Source: Rhynchonema sp. JSB1_4 (Eukaryota; Nematoda; Chromadorea; Monhysterida; Xyalidae). Taken from it: a stretch of DNA of 64,000 nt. Shown piece by piece: positions 5,935 through 64,000 of this stretch. A program made the translations under genes and the position numbers. How positions within the stretch are numbered: position 1 is the first letter of the stretch; each line of letters opens with the position of its first letter. Where the stretch lies: positions 1 to 64,000 of the forward strand of contig JASAMV010001370.1 of NCBI GenBank assembly GCA_030248065.1. The letters run 5' to 3'. The notes under the pieces are model-generated. The model had not been told where the DNA came from, ran no database searches, and worked only from the letters and a program-made list of their open reading frames with translations.

Positions 5935-6175
5935 CCTGTGCTACAGCCCGTGCAGTCAGTGTGTGTTACGCTGAGAGTGGCTGTGTGTGTATACGCAGTG
6001 TGCGTTACACGTTATGGAGTCAGTGAGCATACCTTGTTCGTGCAGTCATTTGGTGCTGCATAGGTATGTGAGATCCTTCAAGCCCGCCTGTCAGACGGAC
6101 GCGTAGTTCAGCTGGTTAGAACAGCCGGATCCGGAAGACGCAGGTTCAACCCCTGCCGTATCCATAATGTTTGGT
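5935..6175 (+). repeat. tRNA-derived dispersed repeat (SINE-like), copy 1
   Basis: The segment 5990-6165 matches, in reverse orientation, 51156-51320, including GTCATTTGGTGCTGCATAGG and the tRNA-like part. The tRNA-like part (6097-6164) has an A-box (TAGTTCAGCTGGTTAGAAC), a good T-arm (GCAGG, TTCAACC, CCTGC) with a B-box, and a mostly paired acceptor stem, but the anticodon arm (CCGGATCCGG) does not form a normal 5-bp stem with a 7-base loop and the whole is about five bases short. I read it as a tRNA pseudogene or SINE head, not a working tRNA. Confidence 0.5.
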
Positions 6176-7547: not shown

Positions 7548-10500
7548 CTAAACCAGCACAATCACATAATCCAGTCGCACCGAGAACCAAGTGTGTGAAA
7601 CATTAGTGAATTCGAATGAATAGCGTCCGGCTAGGGCACATTCGATTATGCCCTCTTCACACAGACTGACGGAGTCGACCGTTAAAGACGGGTACACCAA
7701 ATGACGGGCAATGTTGTTGTTGTCATCATCTTTCGACGGTTGGGTGTCGGATTCTGAAACATTTGCCGGGCATCCAACTTGGAAGTTGATCAATTAGTTG
7801 GCGAGCACTAACTTCGACCAGCGTAAAGTTGAGCTTTTACACGCTGGTCTAAATTAGTGGGCCAATCCTGAAACGCGGCACAACCAAAAATTGTCTATAT
7901 CAAAGCAAAGTTTATGCCTAGACCATGTCAATGGACTTGCTTTCAAAGTTGACACGACCCATAATTGCATTTAGGTATACTTTGTATAACCAACCAGTTA
8001 CTCGCTCGTATGCCACCGTGAACTGAAGATCATTATTCGTCCAGAATTGGTATCCGATCCTCCGGCCAGCCTCTGCTTGCACGCTCACCCGTTCGGTGTG
8101 GTGGTGTTTGATGTGCACACGTTTGCTTGATGGTAGTTTGGTGATCGATAACTGACTCCACACCGTGCCAGGATGGTAGTAGTCATCGTGCGTGATCTTA
8201 AAGTACACATAATTAATTGGGGCTGGGATGATTTTCCTGATTGAGACAAAAAGCGTTGAATTTATGAACAATTAATTTCTGATATCACGGTAAAGACAAA
8301 ATCAACTATGTGGTTATCGAATATCGGAACGGATGCTTCGATCGTGTGACTTTTTGAGGTCGCACGTGGCAACGTGCTGCATTCGCACTGACGATGACCT
8401 GGGTGTACCACCCCTGCGACAGCAGATGGAAACGGGTAGCCAAGAACATGCTGCACAACTCATATTTTTGTTAACGATATGATTTCACGCATTGCTCTGC
8501 AGGGGTGGCGAAGTTCTCAAACATTATGCCGATCGGACTCCATGCAAAACGGGATTTAAACATGAAAGGTTGGCAAGGTCCACACGATGAGTGGCCGGAA
8601 ATACTACGCCTTTGGTGTGCTATGCTCAGTAAACAAACTACCGATGACTAACCCACAACGAAAGACTCCAATAAAGATGCACGAGACATATGTATACTAG
8701 TGGTCGCCCACCAGGTGTACCTGTTTGGGCACATTGACACAAGTGTCCTTCGCGCCCCATCCGCTGTTATCCTGTCGCGTGCCACCGTAACAAAGCGGTA
8801 TACAGTCGGCACTTAGATGTTCGAACAGGTCAGTGACGTGTGACAGTATGTGAATGTGTTTGTGCATATCGGCGCTCAGCAGATGTTTCACGATTGGCCA
8901 CGTTATGGATAGACTGCCCGGTGCATTAATGATGAACACTTTGCCAACCTGCAAGCTAAGTATATTGTGCAGGATTAGCAGCGTCCCCCGCGACCAAAGT
9001 TGTGTGAGCGGAATGTTTCACGCTGCTGGTATCCAAACTGTGTTGGTGACCGCGGCGTATAGTGGCAAACAGATGGTCGGATTTGGCGCCGCGTTTGTGT
9101 GTCGAAAAAGTCGAAATATTTTGGGTGGCCAAAAAGACCACGTAGTCGATCCGATTATCACAGTTGAATACCGCTCCATTGCGAATAGTGATCAAACAAT
9201 AAGAGTGCATGCATGAAGGCCCCAGCACATGATCTGTCCGCTACATATGCGGATCTTTGTGTTTCAGTTTTTGTGTGTTCGTTTAGCAATTCATGCCCAG
9301 GGATCAGCTTTCATCGTAACAGGTAGTAAATCGTGCTGGACACAAAACGCTCACAGGGTACATGTACCTGTTCTGAGAACCACCTCTGCCAAATGTGCAA
9401 CGTGTATCGCATGTACTTTGACTGTGCACTCCACGGATTCATGAAATCGGTGACATGCACGCCGTGAACGTCGATTATTGCCTGTGGCGGTGTTGGAGAA
9501 ATGTATAGATATAGGAAAAATCGGGCAGCAATTGGCAGTTTGTCGGTACTCTTCAATCGCGATGCCCCATTATTCATGTTTGGCACAGATATGGATTATG
9601 CTGAATATGCTCTCTGGGGCCAATGATTCTGAAGATCCAGCGAATTGCATCGCTGTGAATGCGTAAAACGCGATCGGCCTATTGATATATCGTCAACCAA
9701 GATCGTCAACTAGAAGTTGTCAACTCACGCCGTAGGTGTTGAGGTGTGTTGGCGCTCACTCTTGCCTGCCTTGAGTCGACGACGTTAGTTAACGATCTGA
9801 GTGGACCACCTACTGTATCAATAATTAGTCATTACTCTCAAAGGTACGAACATGAACGCTTGATTCCTTCCCGGTGGTTCGTTCGTGTTCCAACAGCATA
9901 CGAATGAGCACCTCGTGTAGAATCAGATACAGGCACGACAAGTCGCCGACTTTTATCACTTTGACCAGCTGTAGAAAACGAAATAATTGTGGATGGATGA
10001 TTTTGATGGCGAAGGACATATTTCTAGGTTTACTGACAGTTGAAGAAATTAGAGAAAATCGACAGGTGCACGTGATTGAATTCTGTAAAAGTTAGGGCAT
10101 GCAGTCCTGAGAAATGGTCCCTCTGACCAAAGCGACAAAAATCCAATTTGAGCACCCAGGATGCTTTTAGAAACGATTCCACTTTGAGCCCTGGGGGCTT
10201 TGAGTGGATACTTTACGTACAGTACCTCGGACGACTCAAAAAGAGCACTTTAATATTTTTCGACAACAGAAAGCGCTATAACCATCTTCGTCTGAACGTG
10301 GTTAGGAAAACGAACAAACTACACAAAAACACGGCATCTTTGACTGTCACAGATTTTCACGATTCGTGCTATCTTTCTATTGATTGAATGTTTTACGCCA
10401 TGGACTGGCACAGAAAAAATAACCCAACTAGAGTGCCCGGGGCTTGACCAAACCCAACCGAACTGACATGTTTCCAATCCACTCCGTCCATAGCAAACAC

Positions 10501-12598: not shown

Positions 12599-12606
12599 AT
12601 TTTCAG
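12599..12606 (+). promoter_or_regulatory. Candidate spliced-leader acceptor of the CARD gene
   Basis: ATTTTCAG preceded by a T-rich tract from about 12574. The ATG at 12669 is 62 bases downstream, with an (AC)n run in the implied leader. The octamer is identical to that upstream of the CRAL-TRIO/GOLD gene. Confidence 0.55.
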
Positions 12607-12668
12607 GTTGTATTCAGCGAAAGCCGGCATCAACACAAAGAATTTCCCACACACACACACACACGAAA

Positions 12669-13649
12669 ATGTCCCGTCGTTCGAACCATCGTGCCAGCGG
12701 CAGCGACCAAACTATCGATCCATCCTCGGGGTCCGATGATGTTGCTGCTGGCAGTCAGCTCCTGCTCGTTACCGAAATGACAGCCGAACAGCGCGCCAAA
12801 CTCGTCTCGTTGCACGGTCTGTGCGAGTTTGAATGCGATCGACACTTTCTCGATCTGCTCATTCGAAAACGAGTGATCACGACCGAGCAACGCGATCACG
12901 TCGAATCGACGGCGCTCGCAACGAACTACGAACGATGCAGTCGGTTGATCGACCTGCTCTTGAAACTGAACTCGTTCGGTGGCTATCGTTGGTTCCATTG
13001 GGCTCTCGAAACGACCAAGCAGCGCGCGAATGCGAAGGCGCTCGAAATTGACCACCTGCCGCTCACTGTGAGTCAAAGCGAACAGCTGGACAAAGTTTAT
13101 GAAGCTCTTGATCAGGGACCGTCTGTCGCTGAGAGTAAGGAAATGAAGGAGAAGAACGTATTCGAAGAGCTGGTTCGAAGCGCCGAGTTCGCAACCGATG
13201 TGATTGACGAATTTGAACGACGCATTGAACAGGTCGACGACATCGATTCGGCCAAGGCGCAGCTTCTGATTGACATTATTGTGAAGCGCGACAATTTCGG
13301 CGACTACCATCGACTGCAGAATCTGTTCGAACGAGCTGACCGGCCGGATCTGGTCGAGATGCTCGAGATCGACGATCAACCGATGACGAAAGAGCAAAAG
13401 CAACGACTGCAGTCCTTCTACGTCCAGTCGTTCCACTGCTCGAGCGAGCTGCTTGCCCAGCTCTTTCATGACGACGTCATGACTCGCCAGAAACTTGAGG
13501 AATTCGAGAATCCACTGTTGACCAACAGCGACAAGTGTAGGAAGTTGATTCTGTTCCTGTTGCGCAAGAACGAACACCGATCGTATCTGGGCTTCCGTCG
13601 GTCGCTCGAGCGCACGAAACAGTTCGTATGGGCGAACAAGCTGGAGTAA
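12669..13649 (+). CDS. Triple CARD-like repeat protein
   Basis: Single uninterrupted frame of 326 residues. After a Ser/Asp-rich leader (1-36) come three repeats of about 90-100 residues: 37-127, 133-234 and 239-326. Each opens with [ML]T-x-x-Q-x-x-x-L (MTAEQ, LTVSQ, MTKEQ), and the first two close with LEID[HD]xP[LM]T. Each repeat shows the CARD pattern: a helix with 'LLIRKRVITTEQ' character, then 'CSRLIDLLL' / 'AQLLIDIIVKR' / 'CRKLILFLLRK', then an aromatic-rich helix ('YRWFHWALE', 'YLGFRRSLE') and a final Ala/Leu helix ending LE. CARDs assemble helical complexes in apoptosis and innate immunity. No caspase, NB-ARC, kinase or membrane segment is present, so it would be an adaptor or decoy. 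The known nematode CARD proteins I recall (CED-3, CED-4) have one CARD each. Repeat 2 carries an insertion between its first helices. Intronless in a gene neighbourhood rich in introns. The CARD call is by eye; another death-fold family is possible. Confidence 0.8.
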   Translation: MSRRSNHRASGSDQTIDPSSGSDDVAAGSQLLLVTEMTAEQRAKLVSLHGLCEFECDRHFLDLLIRKRVITTEQRDHVESTALATNYERCSRLIDLLLKLNSFGGYRWFHWALETTKQRANAKALEIDHLPLTVSQSEQLDKVYEALDQGPSVAESKEMKEKNVFEELVRSAEFATDVIDEFERRIEQVDDIDSAKAQLLIDIIVKRDNFGDYHRLQNLFERADRPDLVEMLEIDDQPMTKEQKQRLQSFYVQSFHCSSELLAQLFHDDVMTRQKLEEFENPLLTNSDKCRKLILFLLRKNEHRSYLGFRRSLERTKQFVWANKLE

Positions 13650-15099
13650 ACGCTGCGGAAGGTACATATATGTGCGATTGGCACTGCGCTTATAGGGGGG
13701 GGGTGCAATAACCTCTCCACGTATCTATTTAAGAGTATTTGAATTTTTTGTTAGCTGTGGCAAGGCCACACTCCAATAATCACGTCCTCAAAAGACATCG
13801 TCGGTCAATTTGTGCCTGAAATCGATGTCCGAGTAGGGGTCCTCAGGAAGAAAGCCCAGGCTTCAGTGCAGCTGCCCTGCCTGATTGGACAATCAGGCCA
13901 AGTTCCTCCACTGCGTGCTCTGTTTTGTGATATGCTCACACGCAATACGACACGAATACACACACGCGTTGTGGTATACGCGCACTGTGTGTTGCAGAGC
14001 ACGTTGCGTGCTGAGTGCACTGAGTTGATTTTTGGAATTTAATTGAGCTAATCCTGATGTCAAGCAGCAGGGCAGCTGCACGGTCGGATTCCCAATACCA
14101 AACAATCACTTTCAAGGGACAGTTTCGGAAAGCGGAAAGTGACACTTCTGGGTCGTGTTGTGTTTCTGTAAAATTATTCGTCTGGCTAAATCGCTGGCTA
14201 CCCACACTATATATGCAGCTGTAAATTGGAGAACTCTTATGTGCGTGGAGGGATTACTGCACCCCTCTTTAACACACCACCTACGGTATTCTCGAAGCAA
14301 TTGTTTGCAATATCCGATTGCCTTATGGACATGTAGGCTGTGATCATGATTATGAGATACGAATCTTGTCCATCGAATTACCACTGTTTATTTATAAACA
14401 CCGAGGTTTCCACATACCGTCCGGGAGTGTGTGCCTAGAAAAATTTGGATAAAGCCCGAACTTGAAAATTGCACCTGCTAAATTGTTGCCAGCGCTGCTG
14501 AATTTCTTTTCAGGCCGACATGCTTCAGCGATCGCTCTGTGACATCGTCCAATACTATGGAGACAACTGCGTGGAATGATGCTGCATGTAAAAAGTTTGA
14601 CGACTTGTGAATCACGGTGTGTAAGAAATGAATGAACGAAAAACTCTTCAGTGCTGTTCAACGCGTGATATTGCAAACAGAAACACAAACAACACCAGCG
14701 CTTTCTTTGTATTTGGTGTATTGACATTTGCAGTACACTTGGTTCCACTTTATGCCGTTGTATTTTTCATTTGTTTGGTTTTTTGATCTTCAGCATTGTA
14801 ATCATAATTTTTTTTGCATATTTGCAGGGCGCTTGGTATTGTTTGAAAAGCATATCTTTATGATTGCGCACCAACGGATTGTATAACAAAATGATTGAGA
14901 CGTCACATGTGCATGACTGTATTCCCGAAACTGCCGACCAATTGACTGTAGTTGTGTTTTACTCAACTAACGCGACCCCACCTTAAACTTGTGGAAATTA
15001 TGGAAAGCAAAAATGCTCTGATAAGCAATCTTACTTCGCAATTTACTTGCGATTTCGAGAATACAACCGAACACACGAAAACATTAGATAAATTAGCCA
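13650..15099. other. Intergenic region with a palindromic repeat
   Basis: No gene recognised. The main structure is an inverted repeat with a perfect 15-bp terminus (GTGCAGCTGCCCTGC at 13866-13880, complement at 14067-14081) and an inner pair (TGCGTGCTCTG / CAGAGCACG), probably an old MITE of about 216 bp. Confidence 0.5.
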
Positions 15100-18000
15100 T
15101 TATCTTCCAATAGTGTGCCCGATGATCGTAATCACAAGAATTAGTCCGAAAGTACAAGTGCCCCTTTGTGCACCGCCATTGCGATGCACCTGCGATGTGC
15201 TGAAGAATCGGCCGTGCAATCCAAATGGTGTGAGCACGGGTGCCTCGGCCATGCCAATTTGTTTCATATCAACAGCATCCAGCACATAGACCAGACCTGG
15301 AGAATAATCAGGAGCATTTTTATTTTTTCTGCCTTAACGGACGCATTTGTGGACGTTTAAGAGGAACAGTGTTCATAAACTCTCATGGGGAACTAAACGT
15401 GGCTTGCAATAAGACTTGCTAAGTGGTATACTTTTTGACAAGCGTTAGTTGTTCACAGTTATTGAACAGGTGCTACACTGGTCAAGGTTAGCGCACCGAC
15501 TGTGTAACTGTATTGCATAGGATTATTCAAATCAACAACCGGACGAGCTGAATGTGCGAAAAAATTGATTTAGACCACCTAAGATGTTGTCATAGTGTTT
15601 GTGATTCACCGTGTCTGACCAGAATTTCGGATTCTATTCATTGCCCGATATCGACACGGTCTTCACCGCTCGTGGTCTTTTTCAATTTTGCACGGGAATT
15701 TCAAAATACTCAGCATCGCACGCACCAAAAAAATTGGTTCCTACGGGCAATAAAAGGTCACCTTTCTTTGCAGTGGAATTGAATGCGCCGACAAGTAGCA
15801 CCCCTTGGTCTTCGGCTGTTTTGCTCGGCGATTGCAGAAACACCGGTTCGCTGACGTAAACATTGTTGGGTGGTGTCCACGATGACTGCGTTCGACTGTT
15901 CACGTTTAACTGCAATGTGATTTATATGAAGGGTCAATGGAAAATGACAACAGTTTCAGGACTGAGGGTGGAATATTAGAACGAGTGTTGGGTGTGAATG
16001 TGAAGGTCGCGGTCGATGGAGGCTCCATCCGGTGTAAGTTCGGTGTGACCGTGAAACACTGCTTGTTACTAACGTGGAACGTTAAAGTTTACATCAAGCT
16101 GCTTTCGAGCTTAAACACCCAAATCTTGTTCACGCCGTGTCGAAAAACTCCAGCCTGGTGTTCAGAAAACTGGTAGTTTCGCGCTGCTAAACCACAGGGT
16201 TTGTTTACGCTGCTGTCTGACTGGCGGAAATACGGTCGAACATGGCCTCAGTACTCGTGGTCGTGGGTAAGCTGAGGTATGTTTTCAGTTTTATACTTAC
16301 GCTTATACGTAATTGAAGTTTTACGAATAAAGTTTGGAACCAAGGATGCACGGAAAAATTTTAAATCTACATGAACCCTAAATAAATTTTTAAATGGCGA
16401 TTGTTGCAGGAAATACTGTACGAAAATGCTCACCTTCAGAATCTGCGAATGCTCCGAGAACGGGTTATCGACGGCGTAGACAAACTTGTAGGGTTTGCCA
16501 ATGAAGGCGGGGTTGATTTGCGGGAATTCGATGGCCAAAGAGATGCCATTTGGATTTAAGACATCCGTGCCCAACGTGTTGCTGGTCAGGTCCAGCGAGT
16601 AGCGATTAATCTTCTGCTCTTGTGGCCAGAACTGTAATCGGCAGCAGTCAATAAGCAGACTTACAACTAGTTTTATTTTTTTTGGCATAAATTTTAGAAC
16701 GAGCTGGGCTTTGAAATGAAGTTAATGCTCCTGACAATGTAGTAAGGGGAAATGTACACATTTTTACGAGCCTAAAATGCACAGTAAGCTGTGTTCGAAC
16801 GGGATCCCTGTCCCAGAGATCCCGGCCTTTTTTTCCAATCCCGATCCCGTGAATTTCGAAATTCAACCCCGATGCCGATCCCGGGGTCAATAGGGACCGG
16901 GATCGGCGGGATTGACTTCAAGCTTGAAAACCCGAATGTTACAGGAAATTGACTGTCGGAGTACTCAAACCACAAAAATTTTCGCGCTTCGCGCGAGTTG
17001 GCATCGTTCGACCTGGGCCAGCTCAACTCGCACGATTTGGCTGAGTTTTGCATCCTGGGCTGCTCGAACGAACTGGTTAGGTCGCCAAACTAAATCCCGA
17101 TCCCGGGATTGGACTCCAATCCCACCATTCGAACACTGACAGTAAGCGATGTTTTGCGACCGGGGAGTAAGCATAGTCGCTCTTTTGTCTTCATTTTAAG
17201 ACAAAACGTAGGTACTGTACCAGTCAGAAATCTGATTTTCTGTAACAGGCACTTTGACCTCTGACGAACTTCTCATAGCGTACTTGGCGGGAAACAACAA
17301 CTTACATTGAATGCGTTGGATAGAAAGCCGAGTTTCATGTACACGGTGAACACTTTTGGCCCGGACGTGTAGGTCAGCAGGTCGACGTGGACCACGTTCG
17401 AGCGCGTGGCATCTTCGAACGCGTTCACCTAGAAACCATAATTTATACAAGCGATCGCATCTTTATGGTGAAACTGGGAAAAATTCGAGCTTTATGATTC
17501 TCACTGTTGATGTTGAAACATTCCTGACTCTGAATGACTGGTTCCATCATGGCACCGTAGCATCAGAAGACCCAGTTATGAAGGGTATGAATTTCAGTCG
17601 CACAAATTGACGACGAAGTTTCAAATCCATTTACCCACTTTACATATACTGACATCTAGGCGCCAACGCATTCAAAAAAGCACACTATCTACATACATAC
17701 ATAGATTTGATGACCAACTAGACAGTTACTGCACAAGAATGAAGCCCTCATTTCCGAACCGAATGCATGAAGAAATAGGACGAAAGTCCGGAGAACTGCC
17801 ACAGTCGACCGTCCTTCTTTCGCATGACGACAATTTGCGATGGGGATTTGTGGACGTCATCGATACCGAACCAGGTTCGAAGCTCGGGTTTCGGATCTGA
17901 AACTTTATTTCAAGTTAAAAAAAAATGAGCCAGATAAATTGGAGCACTATCGTAAATACAAAGAAGTGATAGGCCGGACTCCACAAACCCGAAATCCACT

Positions 18001-31633: not shown

Positions 31634-32926
<1,293 letters not shown>

Positions 32927-35358: not shown

Positions 35359-36971
35359 ATAATTTATGACAAGCACCTGCGAGCTGACGCCAAAGGTTAG
35401 CGTGTTGCAGCAATAACAGACGCGGAAATATTTCCGTGTTCCGTAAATATTTAAACAAAACCTGTGTTAAAAAAGAACATGGAACCGGAAACATTTCCAT
35501 GTTCCGGAAAATTGCAGTCAAAAAATGCACAAAATTGGATCTGCAAACGCAGCACCGGAAGTCTTATTTCAATTTATAAAGTTCACTCATGCCATGTTAA
35601 TTGGACAAAACGAGTGGGCCTGAATTAACACGCAACAGGTTATAGGGTGTCAGTCAAAAATCGATCATTACTTCCACCCTATGAATGAGTAATTACTGTT
35701 GAAAAGCGCCCACCTTGTTTTTGACCTATATGACATGCACAGGCACAAATATTATTTTGCCACAACGCAGTTTTCTTTCACCTTATTTGTCTTAGTTTCA
35801 CATCTTCACCTTCAACACAATCTTACGGATGAATTTTACTGAACACTGAATTATAACATTTGACCAGATTGCAGTTCACTGTGTCTTCAAAGGAAATGCA
35901 AAACATTTCAGAGTTCCGTATTTTTCAATTCATCCGGAAACCGGACTTCGGAACTATTTCCGGAAAACATAAATGGTGTCCCGCACCCGGAAATAGATCA
36001 AAGTTTTACATATAGGTAAATATTTCCACATTCCCGGTGTTCGCGTTGAACCTAAGTCCGCTTTAATGAATCAGCGGCATTTTGGCGGGCGGGGGCGAGA
36101 TGACAGCTGCTAAAAATGAACTGCTTGCCTGACACTGCAAAAGTATGTGCTACAGTATCTCACATCTAATTACTGCTAACCAAGTGGCATTGAATGGCCT
36201 CCGACGCCTCAAAATAACATTCATTGTCACGTCACAGGGAAGGTCAGCACAAGTCCATGACAGAGGACAATGGCACAACAATCCGCCCACTGATCAGTGA
36301 AACATCGACTTACTACTTACAACTACATGCAGAGCTGGGTTCGATCTCTGACTTGTTCGATCTTTCAGTCGATCTTCGATCCGATCTCAGGATCGAAGAT
36401 CAGATCGAAATAATTTTGGAGATCGAACATCAATTTCGATTTTTTATGATGGCTTAGATGAGCTCTACCCGTTGCTTGTGCTCGAGCTATCGGGGCCGTA
36501 CCCCTTTGGCGAATGGGGAAACGGCTGGCATAGCGGAAACCCACCGATGAGCTTAAGGGCTATGAGGAGCACTAACGGAATTGGAACAGCACAAATTTGG
36601 AATTGAACCCATGTCCATGGTTTTGAAATATTGTGCAGCGTGTACCGAAAGCAACCAAGCAACATGAACTCTCTCGCCCACAAGCACAGATATGTGTTGC
36701 GCAACTCAAACACATAACCGTATGCCATCAAGCTGAAATATGTACATAGCAATTGCGGGTAACGTCATGTTTTCTCTGTCTGCTCTAACATTACCCAATT
36801 GATCAGTCATGCATACCGTTTCAGACGGTGCAGTAATTTTATACCATAGAAACACAAAAAACAACAACAAAATATTGACGTAAGCATCGCGTATGAACGT
36901 ACGAATGGTCACAGTCTGAATGAACAACGTCAACGGGGTGATGCGCGCACGTATGTATACGTACTGTAGTT

Positions 36972-38770: not shown

Positions 38771-41490
38771 ACGTTTCAACAGGGCGCGCGGGTTTAAATT
38801 TTTCTGGTATTTTCTGTTTTGTTCCGTTTGGTCCTGTTTTGTGTCTGTTTTCGTACAATTTTGTGGTGTACCTATGTAAAAAATATTCCTCTTTCAGCTG
38901 TAGTAACTTTTCACATTCACCAGGTAGTTTTTTTGGGGGAAACTTTCACTTTTGTTGGTCGCTTCTTTTTTGCTTCCCGTTTTTGAGACCGCCTTTTGAC
39001 CTTGTATTTGTCAGCCATCTTGTTTCCCTTTTGCTCTTGCTTACCTACAGTATACCTGCTCCACAACCATTCTTCATGCTTCGTGATGTGACTATCTGAT
39101 AATGATGCGTAATTCATGTGTTCCAATTGTGTTCCTATTACTGTTATGGTGTATGTGTGTGTGTGCCGTGTGCCAAATGGTTCTTCTAGCAATTCAATCA
39201 TGCAACATCAATTCAATTCGCGGCAAGTATTCCCTTGTTGCTGCCCATCTGAATACCGAACAACCGGACATTTTCGCAATCCAAGAACTCAAAATTTCGG
39301 ACAAAACACCTGGTAATTTTAATGTCAACGGCTACCATCTATTCACTGCAAATCGAAACGAGAACGGCGGCGGGGTCGGCGCGTACGTCAAGCGCGAGCT
39401 CAATCCGTATCGAATCGTCACTCCACCGCTCCAAAATGGCACCGAACTCATCGCGATCTCGTACCAAGTTGGCAATCATTCGTGCGCTGTGGTGGTGGTG
39501 TACAGGTCGGAGGCAAGGTGCAAACCGGACGATTTTGTGGACGAGCTGACCAACGTTCTGGGCAATCTATCAGGAAAGTTTGACGTCTTGTCCGTTTGTG
39601 GCGATGTGAATCTCTGTGCCCTCAAGCCAGAATTCACCAAACTATCGGTTCCACTCTCTGTCTACGGTCTAACACAAGTAATATCCCAACCCACCCTCAA
39701 CGGCAGACTGATAGATGTGATCTTCATGCCTACGAACATCACTTGTCAGTCTGAGGTTCTCCCTGGCATTGAAAATGTCCACGAAATGACCTCAGTGATG
39801 TTCAATCTTTTATCCCAGACTCGTTGCACAGACGACCGTCGATTCACCTGGCTGTACAAACGTGCTGATTGGGACCTCTTCCGTGCGCTGCTGGTTCGTT
39901 ATAATCTGACAAGACTTGTCAATTGTCATGGAGTCACTGGATGTGCATGCAGCGTGGGACGCCATGTCTACTGCCATTCTTGACTGTGCCAAGGCCGCCA
40001 TTCCACATCGGTTCGGAAAACGCAAACGAAACCCAGACCAGCCATGGATGACCAACAAGATCAAACGTTTGTCGAAGGCAAAAAGGAAAGTTCATAGGAA
40101 GTGGAAACAGACTGGTGACAAAAAGCTCTACCACAAGTACTACAACCTGCGCCGGACTGTCCGAAAGGAAGTCAGAAAGGCACAGGCTGGGTATTTGCAT
40201 TCAAACATCACAAATCTCAGTAATCCCAAACAACTCTGGCATAGTTTTCATGACTACACGGGCAAACTGGCGTCTGAGTTGCCGCCACTCCAGACTGCTG
40301 ATGGTGAGTTGGTTGCTGACAGTCAGGGTAAAGCTGAGCTGCTTGCAACCTACTTCCACAGTGTCTGGAACACCAATGGTGACCCGGTGGTGCCCAGCAC
40401 GGACGTTATGTTTGACCCGTGCACCGACCACCTAGCTAATGTATCAACCATCTTTTTCATGCTCAAACGCCTCAACCCCAACAAGTCGCCAGGTATCGAT
40501 GGTGTGACCGGTCAAATGCTGAAAGAAGGTGCCCAGGCGATCGCTCCTGGATTGGCAGCTCTGGTGAACCGTATCGTAAGAACTGGCGTTTGGCCGAGTG
40601 GTTTCAAGTTGGCACTGGTTACTCCAATACCCAAAGTAACCATGTCATGCAAACCATCCGACTACCGTCCTATCTCTAAACTCCCAATCTGTAGTAAAAT
40701 AGCCGAAAAACATGTCAAATCTCTGCTCCAGCCCTACATTACAGCCAACATCTCAGACTTCCAGTTCGGTTTCCGTGCCAGTTGCTCCACCACGGACGCG
40801 CTGATGTGTTTCAACACGATTGTCACGAAAGGCCTCAATGAATCAGGACATGTCACTGCTGTGTATTTCGACATTGCGAAGGCTTTTGACAAAACACCCC
40901 ATTCCTTGTTGTTGCAATGTTTGTCGGATGAATATGGTGTACCTGACTCTCTTGTAAAACTACTGAAATCCTATTTGACAGATCGCTCTCAAATTGTCAG
41001 CGTAGGTTCGTGTCATTCTCGGGCTTTGCCTGTTCTTTCTGGTGTTGCTCAGGGCTCTGTGCTTGGTCCTCAATTATATGGTGCGTATGCTAACTCCGCT
41101 CCAAAACTGAAATTGAGTCTGAAATTGTTTGATTGCACTGAAATTGTATTGTTTGCCGATGATCTTGTTTTGATTCATGTCATGCGTACCGACCAATGCT
41201 GTGCTCACTTGCAGGCAGACGTGAACTCTATCACCGAGCATTTCTCATCAAAACTACTCACAATCAATCCCAACAAAACCAAAATCCAACATTTCACTCG
41301 GTCCAGTCCATAGTTGTGTAACATTGTCATTATAGTATTGAATTATTATATTCATGCAAATGTACTCCAACTCTTTATGTAATTGGTGCCGGTTAAATTG
41401 TAAAATCCTAGGTATTCGTCGTTACTGTCACGCCTCGAGCGGTTGTTGATGTTTACCCTTTTCGTGTCTGAAACGAAATAAAGTACTACC
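38771..41490 (+). mobile_element. Non-LTR retrotransposon (CR1/Jockey-like), defective
   Basis: Inserted in unit 2 at the sequence that reads TTTTACATATAGGTAAAT in unit 1; ACATA borders both sides (38766-38770 and 41491-41495) as a short target duplication. About 330 bp of leader precedes the endonuclease; no ORF1 is seen, so it may be 5'-truncated. The 3' tail ends TAAAGTACTACC without a poly(A). A second fragment of this 3' tail is at 43073-43206. Confidence 0.9.
39102..41313 (+). pseudogene. LINE ORF2: AP endonuclease + reverse transcriptase, frameshifted
   Basis: Frame 1 (39102-39983) starts the AP-endonuclease at about 39171 (IQSCNINSIRGKYSLV, AIQELKISD, CGDVNL). The catalytic SDH near its end reads NVH instead. 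A shift of one base at about 39916-39950 is needed to enter frame 2 (39916-41313), which has the linker (PWMTNKIKRLSKAKRK) and the reverse transcriptase with PNKSPGIDG, YRPISKL, FDIAKAFDKTPHS, GSVLGP and the catalytic FADD. The frame stops soon after the thumb (NPNKTKIQHFT), well short of a normal C-terminus. The FDIAKAFD and AP-type endonuclease place it in the Jockey/CR1 group. Judged dead. Confidence 0.9.
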
Positions 41491-42462
41491 ACATATATGT
41501 ATGTAGGTAAATATTTCCACATTCCCGGTGTTCGTGTTGAACATAAGTCCGACTTTAATGAATCAGCGGCATTTTTGCGGGCGGGGGCGAGATGACAGCT
41601 GCGAAAAAGGAACTGCTTGCCTGACATTGCAAAAGTATGTGCTACAGTATGTCATAACTAATTACTGCTAACCAACTGGCATTGAATGGCCTCCGACGCC
41701 TCAAAATAACATTCATTGTCACGTCACAGGGAAGGTCAGCACAAGTCCATGACAGAGGACAATGGCACAATAATCCGCCCACTGATCAGTGAAACATCGA
41801 CTTACTACTTACAACTACATGCAGAGCTGGGTTCGATCTCTGACTTGTTCGATCTTTCAGTCGATCTTCGATCCGATCTCAGGATCGAAGATCAGATCGA
41901 AATAATTTTGGAGATTGAACATCAATTTCGATTTTTTATGATGGCTTAGATGAGCTCTACCCGTTGCTTGTGCTCGAGCTATCGGGGCCGTACCCCTTTG
42001 GCGAATGGGGAAACGGCTGGCATAGCGGAAACCCACCGATGAGCTAAGGGCTATGAGGAGCACTAACGGAATTGGAACAGCACAAATTTGGAATTGAACC
42101 CATGTCCATGGTTTTGAAATATTGTGCAGCGTGTACCGAAAGCAACCAAGCAACATGAACTCTCTCGCCCACAAGCACAGATATGTGTTGCGCAACTCAA
42201 ACACATAACCGTATGCCATCAAGCTGAAATATGTACATAGCAATTGCGGGTAACGTCATGTTTTCTCTGTCTGCTCTAACATTACCCAATTGATCAGTCA
42301 TGCATACCGTTTCAGACGGTGCAGTAATTTTATACCATAGAAACACAAAAAACAACAACAAAATATTGACGTAAGCATCGCGTATGAACGTACGAATGGT
42401 CACAGTCTGAATGAACAACGTCAACGGGGTGATGCGCGCACGTATGTATACGTACTGTAGTT

Positions 42463-51323: not shown

Positions 51324-51671
<348 letters not shown>

Positions 51672-52504: not shown

Positions 52505-53272
52505 CTATGAAACAGCAACCAAACTGACAATAAATACAAGACCAATCACAATTAAGTATTTTGAATTTTCCACGATTGACGCTGAATTACAGCCGTCGGT
52601 GCGGCAAGTCATAATACAACCTGACCAGAGCGTGTGATTGAACTCAAACTGCCCGCACATGCTGTGCATATTCTGCGTGCTACAGAATCGTTTGTAGATG
52701 TGCACGTGGTCGTCGTTCTGACCCTTGATCTTCACGCAGAACTGCGCCGGGAACACACCGTCGCGATCTTTGCGCGATCCGAAACAGTTCGGCACATACG
52801 CACCGTGAACGCTGTGGTATGGATCGTGACAGGTCGGATCCGATCCGTTAGATGAGTCGCACATGTAGCAACCGATCACCGATGCTGCAAATTTGAAAAG
52901 GATTTTAAAATTCTTTTTTGGTTTAAAATTTTGTCAGTACCACGCGTCGGACAAAAATTGACGTTGTATCTGCTTATCGACGTTTCAAAGGATCGCTTGA
53001 TTGCAACCAGACAAATTCTGGCCAGTTATCTGTCGATTGACACCAAAATCACGTCTCTAAGTATGTGCTGACATCCACAGGCTTGATTCCGCAAATACTG
53101 GGGGCACTAGTTGGGTTCTTCCTTTTTGCTGGAGGGTCCATTTCCCATCAGTTTCCACTGAGAGCCCGATGCTGGGGCAGTAGATAAAGAACTCTGCCAT
53201 GTACTCACCTCCCTCGTGCGCTAATCCGAACAAGATCAACAGCAACGTCAATAGATCCTCAGCGATTACCAT
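52505..53272 (-). CDS. Ly6/quiver-like secreted GPI-type protein
   Basis: Two exons: 53272-53209 and 52884-52505; 147 residues, phases agree (donor GTGAGT, acceptor ATTTGCAG). Signal peptide MVIAEDLLTLLLILFGLAHEG. The mature part has ten cysteines in three-finger spacing, beginning IGCYMCDSSNGSD and closing CRTDGCN, the Ly6/uPAR terminal signature. A hydrophobic tail (YLIVIGLVFIVSLVAVS) follows, consistent with GPI anchoring. Relatives (insect quiver/sleepless, nematode ODR-2-like proteins) modulate channels or receptors at the cell surface. Decayed copies of its last exon lie at 49-51 kb. The octamer GTGAAACATC lies about 22 bases before the ATG. The family call is firm; the partner is unknown. 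Confidence 0.85.
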
Positions 53273-59972: not shown

Positions 59973-62900
59973 TCACGGAATCGGCACCGTTGCAGCAGCC
60001 ATCGTCGCATTATTCTTGTTGTTCATTTTCATCTTTCGCTCATGTCGCTCTTTCATCACATTGTCGGTGTGTTTGGCATGTTGATCGCAATGCGGCCAAC
60101 ATTCTCCAACGGGTCGCTCCGATTTGGCGTGTGCTTCGTATTCGCTCAACTGCGCCCGATAGCGAGTCTCGTCAATCCACATTGATTGTCTGATCGGCCA
60201 AGGCAAATGCACGTCACGCTCGCACTCGCCGGCTGACGGAATCGACTGGGGAAAAGAAACAAATTCGTGAATACGATTACCCGGATCGAACTTGATGTTC
60301 AAACAGATTTTGGGAGCGCTATTGAATGAAGAATTTGCCATGGCCAAAGCTAGTTTCGCAACTCTGAAAGCAGATCACCTTGAGATCGGCCTATGCCCCG
60401 CATGCACTTTCCTATTGTCCTGGTACATCGTTATTGAAAATTGTGGCCAGTTCGATAACCCCAGATGCTTCGATAGGCAACTGTTCGGTTGTCTAGATAT
60501 CACTATTACAAATCACCGCATTGGCTTATGTAAATTTATTACGCGTTCCTGCTTCCGACCCGACCCAACCCAGATAATGCAAGTAAAGTGCCAGTTAAAC
60601 AGAGAACACCTCCCTGTTAGTTTTATGCCAAATACAATCAAGGACGGTGCACCATGTCAACGTGCGGGGTTTGGCGCCAACATAGTTTTCGCATTTCGGC
60701 AAATTCGGATGCTTCTAATCCTTTACATCCGGGGTTCAAGACATTCAAGACCAAAAAATGTGCATATGTGTGTCGAGTGTCACGCCAAATGGTGACCGTC
60801 CCGGCCGAGACCACGATTTCCGCTCACCGCTTATTGGTCGCTCAATGATCATATGAGAGTTCATCAAATCAATTTTGGTTTTCACGTTCAATCACTCCTA
60901 ACCACTGTGCTATTTGTGATTCTGACTAAACATTTTCAGCTGGAAAAAATCCAGCAGAGCACCCGGCAGCGTCACCAACCCCGTCACTTTCCCGCTCCAC
61001 GACTCAGGAAAAAAGTTTGACCAATTTTTATAAAGTCGTTGTGCGACCAACATGAATACTCTGACAATACTTTTGGGAGAAACTTTTTAAACGTGTTGCC
61101 TGATGCGTAAAGCACAGGCAACTGGCGCAGCCAGCTGTTTCGTAGCATTTCGCAAATTACTAGTACGTTAGACTTGTGTGTTGAGCGGCTGGCGGTCACG
61201 TGACCGCTGCAACTAATACACGCCTAATGAGCTTTAGGATCAGGCAACGCGTTTGAAAAGTTTCTCCCAAAAGTATTGTCGGAGTATACCTCCAACACAT
61301 CGAGCGAGCCGTGATGTGTCTTTTCGTAGCTCATCCCGTCCATCATCAACGACCACCGGCCCCAACGATTGCGTGCCGCGCGTCTATCAATCACCCACGC
61401 GTGCGCACGACGTAACACACGAAATGGTGACGATGGGGGCATAACGTCGATCAAGTGAAACATCATACACGACATACGCGCTGCGTGCGAGGTAGCGCTG
61501 AAAAATTGACCGAGCCGTTAGCAGACTTCTCGGGGGGGGTTACGAGACATGAGACTGGCGCATTACCAGACTGCTTAAAATTCATGATGTGAACTGAAAA
61601 AACAGCCTTCACCAGTCAGTGACTTGCCATGACAACCATGAAATGCACTGGGTGCTGTCTTGTCGACGTGCTTTGCACAAAAGATGATAGATCAATAACG
61701 ATACGATTTAGCCTTGTGGGCACGCATTGTGTTAACTCTGTGGATGCAGTTTCGGCACATAATGCCAGACTACAATGGCGCCCTGGGCCTTGTCAATGAC
61801 AACACCGCCCACGGTGGTCACCGCCGTGAGCCGAATCCTGCCCAATTTTCTACGGTCGAGTGAAATATAGGTCACCACAGGTCTCTTTTGATAGAAAAGT
61901 GCACTGAGCACCACTGCAGTCTGGCATTATGGGCCGAAACTGCATCCACAGAGTTAACACAATGCATGCCCGAACCATGAAATGCCTCATAGTTGAGAAA
62001 AAGTTATCATACTTGTAATCTGAACAGTTCCAGCTGAGTTGCCGATGATCTAAGTGCGAGCGCGTGAGCGTGACGGTGGGTCGAATGTACCGCCACATTA
62101 GCTCGAGCAGTGCTTCCGAATCCAACATGGCATCCGTATCATTTTCGTGTCTGTTTTGTCCGAGCTGCGCCCATTTCTGCAGAAATTCTCGCGAGAACGG
62201 CGTATTCCGCACAATGTAGTTGCCGGGAGAGAGTTGCGGATAGAGGAACTTCTCATAAAACACCATCTCGATCGTTTTGGGGGCGACAAATTCGTGTAGG
62301 CATCGATCCGGATTGACGATACCCGTGTCAGCGTCCAGCACAAACAACCACTCGATGTCGGGCCGATGTGCGAGCGTGTACGCCACTGCGCAGTGTCTGC
62401 GGAAGTGAATCTGCAAAAGGTTGTTCTTTGATGTCCTCCACCTCTCTGGTTCCGAATCGATGGTTCCAGAATTTAGACGCAAAATATATTGAATTCAGAA
62501 AACCGCCGGCGTTGTGTACATGTACTGTATTTGGTTGCAACAACGAACACAATTCTTGGGTTTTGTAAACTTGGCAAATAATGATGTATCAAGAAAAAAT
62601 CACTTGTCGTCTCTAAAATGGCTTAGAAATTTCGTGATAGATCCATAGTGCTTAAACAGCAAAAATTTTGATCTATTATGATCTTTTGTGCAAAGCGCGT
62701 CCACCAGATGCCAGCGCAAATGTCATGATCTTCCAGTTTCGCCCAGCGCATCCCAAACCCACGTCCGTGCTCCCCCCCAACCTTCGCAATGTGACTGCAT
62801 CCGTAATCCGCGTGGTCAATGAACTGATCATGATAGAAGGTCACATGCGGGTAGTCCCAGCGTTGCGCGTAGCACTTCTGTGTCGCCAACGGCGTTTTGT

Positions 62901-63372
62901 AGTCGAGTTCGCGATCCGGTGTCAGATACGTAAAGATACCTGGCGTAGTTGGCATTTTTGGGGTAAGCGTTAGCTCATAATTATACAGTAAGTGTAGACT
63001 TGACACACTCCAGATTATAGGTTTCGCCTGACCTCACATTTAAAAGTTTACATGTTAGGCAATTGTGTCAACTTTACCTATCGATTTATTGGCGCATTTC
63101 AGATAGTCCGGCTGCTTGCTTGTGGTTGTCTCGGGCGTCAAAGCTGCTCGCTGTCGTTGTTCCTGTGCGTGTCGTTGGGCCAATAATGTTTCGACCACCT
63201 TATCTGGTCCAACGAATCTGTGATTGTCCTTAATTGGCTGCTGGTCCGAATCCAATCGCGCTAATGTTTCAAATGGCTCGGTGGCAAAGTTCCGCCACAT
63301 GAGAGTAATAGCGGTGGCAAATGTACAAGTCGTTATGAAGGTGGTCCACCGACGCCGACTGTGAGACAGCAT
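59973..63372 (-). CDS. DUF273 glycosyltransferase-like type II membrane protein
   Basis: Five exons: 63372-63078, 62939-62782, 62410-62013, 61497-61297, 60363-59973; 480 residues, phases agree. A short basic cytoplasmic tail (MLSHSRRR) and one membrane helix (TTFITTCTFATAITLMW) give a Golgi type II topology; an in-frame ATG 31 codons upstream (63465) would lengthen the tail. After a stem comes IFTYLTPD...QKCYAQRWDY, then FRRHCAVAYTL, then EWLFVLDADTGIVNP with a DxD-type motif at about 177-179, then YEKFL...GNYIVRNTPFSREFLQKWA. Exon 4 has HAWVIDRR...WGRWSLMMDGM. The C-terminus is charged and ends TVPIP. This order is that of the nematode DUF273 family, related in fold to sugar-nucleotide transferases; donor and acceptor sugars are unknown. 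The exon 4 donor is uncertain: GTTGGA keeps phase, the stronger-looking GTATAC 7 bases on does not. Introns 3 and 4 contain three MITEs. Confidence 0.82.
60834..61050. mobile_element. TA-target MITE, 'TTGGTCGCACAATGAC' family, copy 3
   Basis: Ends TTGGTCGCTCAATGATC and GTCGTTGTGCGACCAA; left TA kept, right TA changed to CA. In intron 4 of the DUF273 gene. Confidence 0.8.
61057..61286. mobile_element. TA-target MITE, 'CTCTGACAATACTTTTGGGAG' family, copy 2
   Basis: TACTCTGACAATACTTTTGG faces CCAAAAGTATTGTCGGAGTA. Its right edge lies about 10 bases inside the intron from the exon 4 donor of the DUF273 gene. Confidence 0.82.
61718..61972. mobile_element. Palindromic repeat shared with 19.8 kb
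   Basis: GGGCACGCATTGTGTTAACTC faces GAGTTAACACAATGCATGCCC; inner arms GCAGTTTCGG...CATAATGCCAGACT. In intron 3 of the DUF273 gene. Confidence 0.75.
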
Positions 63373-64000
63373 TGTCTCGTTTTGATTAAAATTATTTTTA
63401 TTTGAACTTTTGTTTGTTTTGTTCCTTTTAGTGTCACTCAATGGCTCAAGTTTAGTTAGTCGCAAGCAAAACGCAACTGGAACCCGAAACAGCGTGTGCT
63501 GTAGTCGCTGTGAATGTACACACGTGGCTATTGATATTATTTCACTAGCACATCATGGCATTGTCTCATCGCCACTGCATATGACATTGGCTAAATAGAA
63601 GTTGTTGTGTGTCCACTGCATATCAGACAGCTGACACAAAGTCAATGCGTACCTATGTGGCATTAATAACCTGCTTGCTGTGAGCTCTGAAACCCAAATG
63701 CAAGCTTTGTATTCTCGTCCAGGCACGTACACCCAGGGGGAACACACCATGACAGATATGTATGTACTTTTTCGCTAGTCGAAATTAAAAAAAACCAACG
63801 AAATCACATGGTACGGCACAGCCGATCTTGCAGCCCCGATGTACATTCCTTGCATACAATGCAAATACTATACCTCAGACAAAAGTTCCAATGAAGCATA
63901 AACAATAAGAATGCAATAGCGATCTGCAAAAGCAGGCACGCTGATGATATACAAACAAACGATTTGTTTTGAAATGAGATATGTATGAAGAAAACACAGC
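63373..64000. other. Upstream region of the DUF273 gene
   Basis: No further gene recognised before the window ends. It should contain the DUF273 promoter and, if the upstream ATG at 63465 is used, 31 extra codons. Confidence 0.35.

Follow-up and report, generated by a model that had tools for sequence, protein, structure and literature searches.

A predicted CARD-only protein with two CARDs and a probably diverged acidic repeat, and its CARD-bearing relatives, in the nematode Rhynchonema sp.

Introduction

Can an animal protein consist of linked CARDs and nothing else and, if so, upon what would it act? The question is raised by a gene at positions 12669-13649 (forward strand) of contig JASAMV010001370.1 from the nematode Rhynchonema sp. 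JSB1_4 (assembly GCA_030248065.1), the first 64,000 nucleotides of which constitute the stretch of DNA analyzed here (the window). The predicted product carries three tandem repeats (D1, D2 and D3), which were compared with profile collections, with the remainder of the genome and with larger sets of proteins. We would give an even chance to the reading that this is a real, conserved gene for a CARD-only protein, composed of two good CARDs and a probably diverged acidic repeat, which would serve as a scaffold or regulator of proteins in which one CARD is fused to another module (CARD-X proteins).

The action of a CARD depends on its contact with other CARDs, frequently within a helical assembly; where CARDs are linked they can serve as a ready-made strand, as the 2CARD of RIG-I does for MAVS.

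According to excerpts of PMC11260149, CARD signalling in C. elegans comprises CED-3/CED-4 and, more recently, the 2CARDs of DRH-1 and DRH-3, and the signalling target of DRH-1 is not known. The first-pass annotation of the window, made from its letters alone, had held that nematode CARDs occur only singly, together with an enzyme or an NB-ARC partner. This view is outdated, since the same excerpts describe a predicted 2CARD in DRH-1 and a solved one in DRH-3.

Repeat structure and CARD identity

The three repeats open with MTAEQRAKL (nucleotide 12777), LTVSQSEQL (13062) and MTKEQKQRL (13383), and the first two close with LEIDHLPLT (13041) and LEIDDQPMT (13362). The three openings were recovered in none of 5000 shuffles of the residues, and even one closing in none of another 5000. 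The exact motifs, the shuffles and the ATG-to-TAA frame all agree with the initial description of three tandem repeats with common openings, LEID closings in the first two and a single intronless frame. Repeats 1 and 3 are 36% identical (E 2e-12, a single-comparison value).

The whole protein matched Pfam CARD with 38.6 bits (1.1e-9; cut-off 23.9). When the repeats were scored singly, as had been proposed in the first pass, D3 (13380-13646) exceeded this cut-off with 24.6 bits, D1 fell below it with 21.1 bits, and D2 gave no CARD match. A profile built only from the CARDs of eight other loci of the genome, and free of window sequence, scored D1 at 113.9 bits and D3 at 80.0 bits. A further profile of ten genome CARDs, in which D1 and D3 are included, was compared with solved CARDs; the best match was APAF-1 (1.5e-6), followed by CED-3 (9.7e-5) and RAIDD (0.0066), and the CARDs of caspase-1, ICEBERG and BIRC2 were matched as well. 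Eight of these ten CARDs matched Pfam CARD and three matched CARD_2 (E-values up to 10 being admitted; best CARD_2 E 0.001). By these profile comparisons, repeats 1 and 3 belong to the CARD superfamily. No other family, NB-ARC, NACHT, helicase and RNA-binding domains included, rose above its Pfam cut-off in the 326-residue protein, and a search of NCBIfam found nothing.

The acidic second repeat

The second repeat is probably a diverged copy of the same domain. It is 29% identical to repeat 1 over 56 amino acids (E 1e-5, again for a single comparison), the likeness lying in its second half, and its comparison with repeat 3 was not significant (single-comparison E 1.5). Against the eight-CARD profile it scored 11.9 bits, a value reached by one of 5000 shuffles, and hhalign returned an E-value of 9.5e-5 with a probability of 58.6. 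The structure predicted from a three-row alignment of the window repeats has six helices, with a predicted local distance difference test score (pLDDT) of 73.7.

Several results weigh against this assignment. Of 319 Foldseek matches to the D2 model none reached E <= 0.001, and the best 50 of the 319 included no CARD; the 50 matches listed by VIA-align likewise contained none. The full-length protein, modelled without an alignment, reached a pLDDT of 40 and gave no usable fold. Weak rival matches were also obtained, one to Pfam Death (15.1 bits, below cut-off) and one, over residues 128-225, to the PADLOC model DpdH (16.4 bits, E 5.5e-4), the latter being taken for chance; the host is a nematode. 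In the genome itself the best match of D2 beyond its own position had an E-value of 8.4 (two candidates scored). The structure prediction suggested in the first pass yielded, for repeat 2, six helices and no CARD among the matches listed. Of the three CARD-like domains claimed there, repeats 1 and 3 stand, on Pfam CARD and on profiles in both directions, while repeat 2 is weak and diverged, its model being a shallow one.

Evidence for a functional coding sequence

Under a simple model, about 9e-4 frames as long as 326 codons are expected by chance in the window. The GC content at third codon positions (GC3) of the frame is 0.66. In comparison with the CARD of its relative C475 (see below), identity at codon positions 1, 2 and 3 is 67, 70 and 44%, with a nonsynonymous divergence (dN) of 0.38 and a synonymous divergence (dS) of 2.9, which is saturated; in comparison with that of C2137, the corresponding identities are 64, 69 and 46%. 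Since positions 1 and 2 are better conserved than position 3 in both cases, the sequence has been maintained as protein, and the frame looks like a real gene. Because a 3′ splice-site-like sequence ends at 12606, upstream of the ATG, an intron in the 5′ untranslated region, and hence an untranslated first exon, is probable.

A gene on the opposite strand (12630-13667, a frame of 345 amino acids) was considered and rejected as a shadow of sense-strand codon bias: that frame is open because the codons TTA, CTA and TCA are absent from the sense frame.

CARD relatives in the same genome

A search of the genome with the whole protein gave nine matches including the window itself, the eight other loci (C475, C2137, C3334, C3893, C4145, C5279, C2069 and C3763) being found at E <= 4.7e-7, each with its CARD in one open frame. 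D1 is 54% identical to the CARD of C475, and in a tree it groups with the CARDs of C475 and C2137 (support 92/95, not starred), the two loci with TBL1-type modules described below. After the CARD, the exons of these two loci read LTIKQR or PTIRQR, which by reading resembles the opening of repeat 2. An in-frame ATG precedes the CARD in seven of the eight loci and was not found at C3763; the CARD is therefore placed in the first visible coding exon. In five of the eight, the modelled exon ends shortly past the CARD at a donor in phase 0.

More than one CARD was seen at a single locus of the nine, that of the window gene, which also showed no partner; we read it as a family member with several CARDs and without a partner module. 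A donor-like site follows its stop codon (Table 1), and a donor stands at a comparable place in several relatives. Between 13650 and 16300 the forward-strand coding signal did not rise above background, the best segment scoring 8.5 against a background median of 10.0. No family other than CARD passed its Pfam cut-off in the protein, and the 2.6 kb downstream gave no signal of a partner exon.

A second CARD search of the genome gave 15 matches, among which those on C1056 (two), C3180, C3563, C1507, C3760 and C3270 cover only the second half of the domain. Because of this half coverage, their CARD is probably interrupted by an intron, and these loci were treated as a class apart; they were left out of the family CARD alignment (A1). 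A third search gave 23 matches at E <= 10, of which 11, including C1374, were at E <= 0.001. From the remaining matches, use was made only of two weaker CARD signals beside caspase exons, at C2451 (E 0.003) and C5102 (E 0.5). The caspase CARDs of C1056 scored 20-23 bits against the family profile and were absent from the whole-protein matches. Matches to the RIG-I C-terminal domain above cut-off were found on C1790 and C2148. A genome search for NB-ARC, as in CED-4, gave no match among six candidates, a domain that introns can hide.

Two of these contigs carry further features. Positions 10900-24815 of C1056 hold a cluster of CED-3-like caspase exons, apparently in three tandem copies, two of which are preceded by the second half of a CARD. 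Near the CARD of C3763, the opposite strand carries a CARD copy whose frame is broken and another CARD that is split (L028 2753-2986 (+), 7515-8331 (+)).

Modules behind the CARD

The same-strand modules that follow the CARD were AAA at two loci, TBL1-type WD40 at two, F-box-like at two and coiled-coil-like at one, and at the remaining locus, C3763, no partner was identified behind the CARD. In C3334, exons joined by hand and in phase encode an AAA domain in which the P-loop reads GPSGNGKT and a splice brings together the two parts of a Walker B-like IVIIDEI; the joined exons match Pfam AAA with 43.4 bits (cut-off 21.2) and AFG2 at 1.5e-15. The AAA of this type is classical, with matches to AFG2, Cdc48 and spastin, and is followed in C3334 by an ankyrin exon (7.6e-9). 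C3893 shares with C3334 five blocks in the same order on one strand, namely the CARD, three AAA blocks and a block just before the ankyrin repeats, up to which C3893 has been read, the ankyrin repeats being seen in C3334 only. The P-loop of C3893 lacks the lysine (HGLGTGMTM versus HGPSGNGKTM in C3334; L026 ~7760-7800, reverse-complement coordinates), and its AAA module may possibly be a pseudo-ATPase.

A single exon of C475 matches Pfam WD40 with 47.4 bits (cut-off 27), and joining two of its exons gives a match to TBL1XR1 with an E-value of 2.3e-47 over the whole chain (best stretch 93.9 bits). A similar join of two short exons at C2137 is matched to TBL1XR1 with an E-value of 3.7e-5, and further WD40 exons lie ~8 kb after the CARD; two WD40 blocks occur in the same order at both loci. 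A UBA-like frame near C2137, picked by eye as its partner, was replaced by these TBL1-type exons. C4145 and C5279 are a recent duplicate pair with CARD parts 80% identical, and the exons after their F-box-like stretch gave no Pfam match over cut-off (FTH 12.3 bits). The exons after the CARD of C2069 were read by eye as a coiled coil.

We put forward the CARD-X genes, each with one CARD fused to one of these varied modules, as predicted gene models. The order of CARD and partner is preserved within two diverged pairs (CARD identity 49% and 51%); this speaks for true CARD-X genes and is a stronger argument than the prediction of exon chains. In the predicted exon chains of C475, C3334, C4145, C5279 and C2069, the CARD is connected with some of the partner exons.

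Other observations tell against these models. The predictor left the CARDs of C3893 and C2137 unconnected and passed over exons at other places, the CARD-X joins being hand-made. None of the AAA exons of C3334 and C3893, taken singly, matched AAA above cut-off, and the F-box-like stretch of C4145 and C5279 scored 19.1 bits, below the Pfam cut-off of 24.3. For C475, C2137 and C3763 it is uncertain which donor should be chosen, and the donor of C3893 is weak-looking. Finally, genes of the partner types exist where no CARD was detected: the three CARD searches gave no match on the contigs C2704, with its TBL1-like exons, and C507 and C4188, with their AAA-like exons.

Searches beyond the genome

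No homologues were found among 5.8 billion proteins, either with the whole protein or with the CARD alignment as query, in a collection in which nematode proteomes are seemingly hardly represented. This absence says little, because the DUF273 protein of the window, used as a control, found one fragment only in the same collection. Phage records contained no homologue, and neither the nine pattern matches in viral contigs nor the 55 in prokaryote genomes were confirmed. The 22-mer of the SL1 spliced leader, with two mismatches allowed, had no match, and the Rfam SL1 search scored only 50 of 52251 candidates.

Features of the window

The coordinates of the gene and of the other features seen in the window are collected in Table 1. 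The attribution of the DNA to a nematode, proposed in the first pass, agrees with 57 matches to the cuticle-collagen N-terminal domain in the genome and with the DUF273 gene in the window, both of which we take to be nematode families.

Table 1. The CARD-array gene, its parts and other features of the window
Feature	Positions	Strand	Remarks
Coding sequence, CARD-array protein of 326 amino acids	12669-13649	+	ATG 12669, TAA 13647-13649; coding part without intron
3′ splice-site-like TTTTCAG	12600-12606	+	Next base 12607; sequence reading
N-terminal 35 residues	12669-12773	+	Rich in Ser (8 residues, counted by eye); net charge -1
Repeat 1 (D1), CARD	12774-13052	+	Net charge 0; profile scores, relatives
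Repeat 2 (D2)	13053-13385	+	Very acidic, net charge -15, isoelectric point (pI) 4.3, extra stretch near start; weak profile support
Repeat 3 (D3), CARD	13383-13646	+	Basic, net charge +5, pI 9.5; profile scores
Donor-like GCGGAAG/GTACAT	13655-13667	+	GT at 13662, phase 0, after 12 bases past stop; reading
tRNA match, possibly tRNA-derived repeat	6097-6164	+	Rfam 46.7 bits; not called by ARAGORN
RPE65/carotenoid oxygenase-like exon	16251-16721	-	26.9 bits, just below cut-off 27
Long TG and AC dinucleotide arrays	32527-32925 and 51326-51653		Consistent with local skew peaks
Near-identical 79-codon frames, dispersed repeat	36218-36454 and 41710-41946	+	Flank the retrotransposon
Retrotransposon of non-long-terminal-repeat type	39087-41310	+	Frames for an endonuclease (PF03372, 5e-7) and a reverse transcriptase (PF00078, 2.5e-25)
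Quiver/Ly-6-like protein	52508-52933	-	PF17064, 7.9e-10
DUF273 family gene	61853-62494, perhaps to 63552	-	1.1e-19
Maybe further exons of the DUF273 gene	62626-63033 and 63058-63552		No Pfam match for 62626-63033

Proposed role and rival explanations

Under the preferred reading, that of a scaffold or regulator, the gene belongs to a family in the genome with one kind of one-exon CARD in common, seven of the eight other members being read as a single CARD before another module. The window protein would act through CARD-CARD contacts on CARD-X proteins or on CED-3-like caspases, its linked CARDs offering a preformed strand that may seed, bridge or cap assemblies, and the opposite charges of D2 (acidic) and D3 (basic) would fit such an array. 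Any binding, assembly or role in death or immunity ascribed to it here is what its sequence would suggest. A broader proposal is more tentative and less likely than not: a CARD network independent of NLRs, which would have arisen as one type of one-exon CARD spread to unrelated modules, and made up of CARD-AAA-ankyrin (analogous to an NLR, its ATPase being of Cdc48 type), CARD-TBL1-type WD40, CARD-F-box-like and CARD-coiled coil proteins, with the triple-repeat CARD-only protein as their shared seed or scaffold. The CARD-X relatives lay outside the view of the first-pass annotation and, although their gene models are predictions, they strengthen its suggestion that the locus belongs to a CARD system not described before.

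An inhibitory decoy, resembling vertebrate COPs (CARD-only proteins) or viral CARD proteins, which with its single CARD faces would cap the assemblies of CED-3-like or CARD-X proteins and stop them growing, is rather unlikely. The CARD-only architecture and the presence of ICEBERG among the profile matches speak for it, as do the CARD-caspase exons on C1056 and the weaker CARD signals at C2451 and C5102; two or three linked CARDs, however, fit bridging or seeding better than capping, and the caspase CARDs of C1056, at their low scores against the family profile, are far from D1. Given the RIG-I-like C-terminal domains in the genome (C1790 and C2148), an adaptor role is also possible, whereby the protein would be an analogue of MAVS downstream of a nematode RIG-I-like receptor: the 2CARD of the helicase would dock on the array, and the signal would pass to CARD-X proteins. 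The matches of three CARDs to CARD_2 and the missing downstream partner of DRH-1 in C. elegans (excerpts of PMC11260149) lend themselves to this role, but no membrane anchor was seen on reading the sequence, and the best solved CARD match is APAF-1 and not MAVS or RIG-I. We regard it as quite improbable.

It is very unlikely that the gene is a by-product without function of its own, a truncated CARD-X gene that lost its partner through a stop before the donor site and is now drifting. The phase 0 donor-like site shortly past the stop and the divergence of D2 would be expected in that case and weigh against the preferred reading; the intact frame, its GC3 and the slower change at codon positions 1 and 2 relative to C475 and C2137 speak against drift. 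That the repeats are some unrelated helical repeat instead of CARDs is the most improbable of these explanations, since D1 and D3 are assigned to the CARD superfamily by profile comparisons made in either direction.

A CARD family with several partner types, together with a CARD-only array, would supply named candidates for the gap downstream of DRH-1; as the target of DRH-1 is not known, the family offers candidates that can be tested. The apparent occurrence of related CARDs before quite different proteins hints at a CARD signalling network new to worms.

Comparison with known systems

The closest solved CARD, by the family profile, is that of APAF-1, the counterpart of CED-4, and CED-3, the partner of CED-4, is also matched; unlike APAF-1/CED-4, the window protein has no NB-ARC and combines several CARDs in one chain. 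It shares tandem CARDs in one chain with the 2CARD of the RIG-I-like receptors (RIG-I, MDA5 and C. elegans DRH-1 and DRH-3), from which it differs in having neither a helicase nor an RNA-binding domain, and in having two clear CARDs plus a diverged repeat. With the CARD-only proteins (CARD16/17/18-ICEBERG and the iridovirus CARD) it has in common that only CARDs, and no effector domain, are present. COPs carry one CARD, whereas the window protein has three repeats. The CARD protein of grouper iridovirus, for example, is 91 amino acids long (excerpt of PMC4457926).

Both kinds of design, the CARD array of the RIG-I-like 2CARD and the CARD-only protein, already exist in the excerpted literature. 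In those excerpts of the open-licence literature, neither a three-repeat CARD-only chain nor a nematode protein that combines a CARD with AAA-ankyrin, with TBL1-type WD40 or with an F-box-like part was found in print.

The relatives invite comparison with the NLRs, in which a CARD is followed by NACHT and repeats: C3334 likewise reads CARD, ATPase and repeats, and C3893 follows it as far as read. In contrast to the NLRs, the ATPase of C3334 is a classical AAA and its repeats are ankyrin, and the window gene has neither of these, nor NACHT. If the gene models are true, they would represent a second route by which animals build CARD proteins of the ATPase-repeat type.
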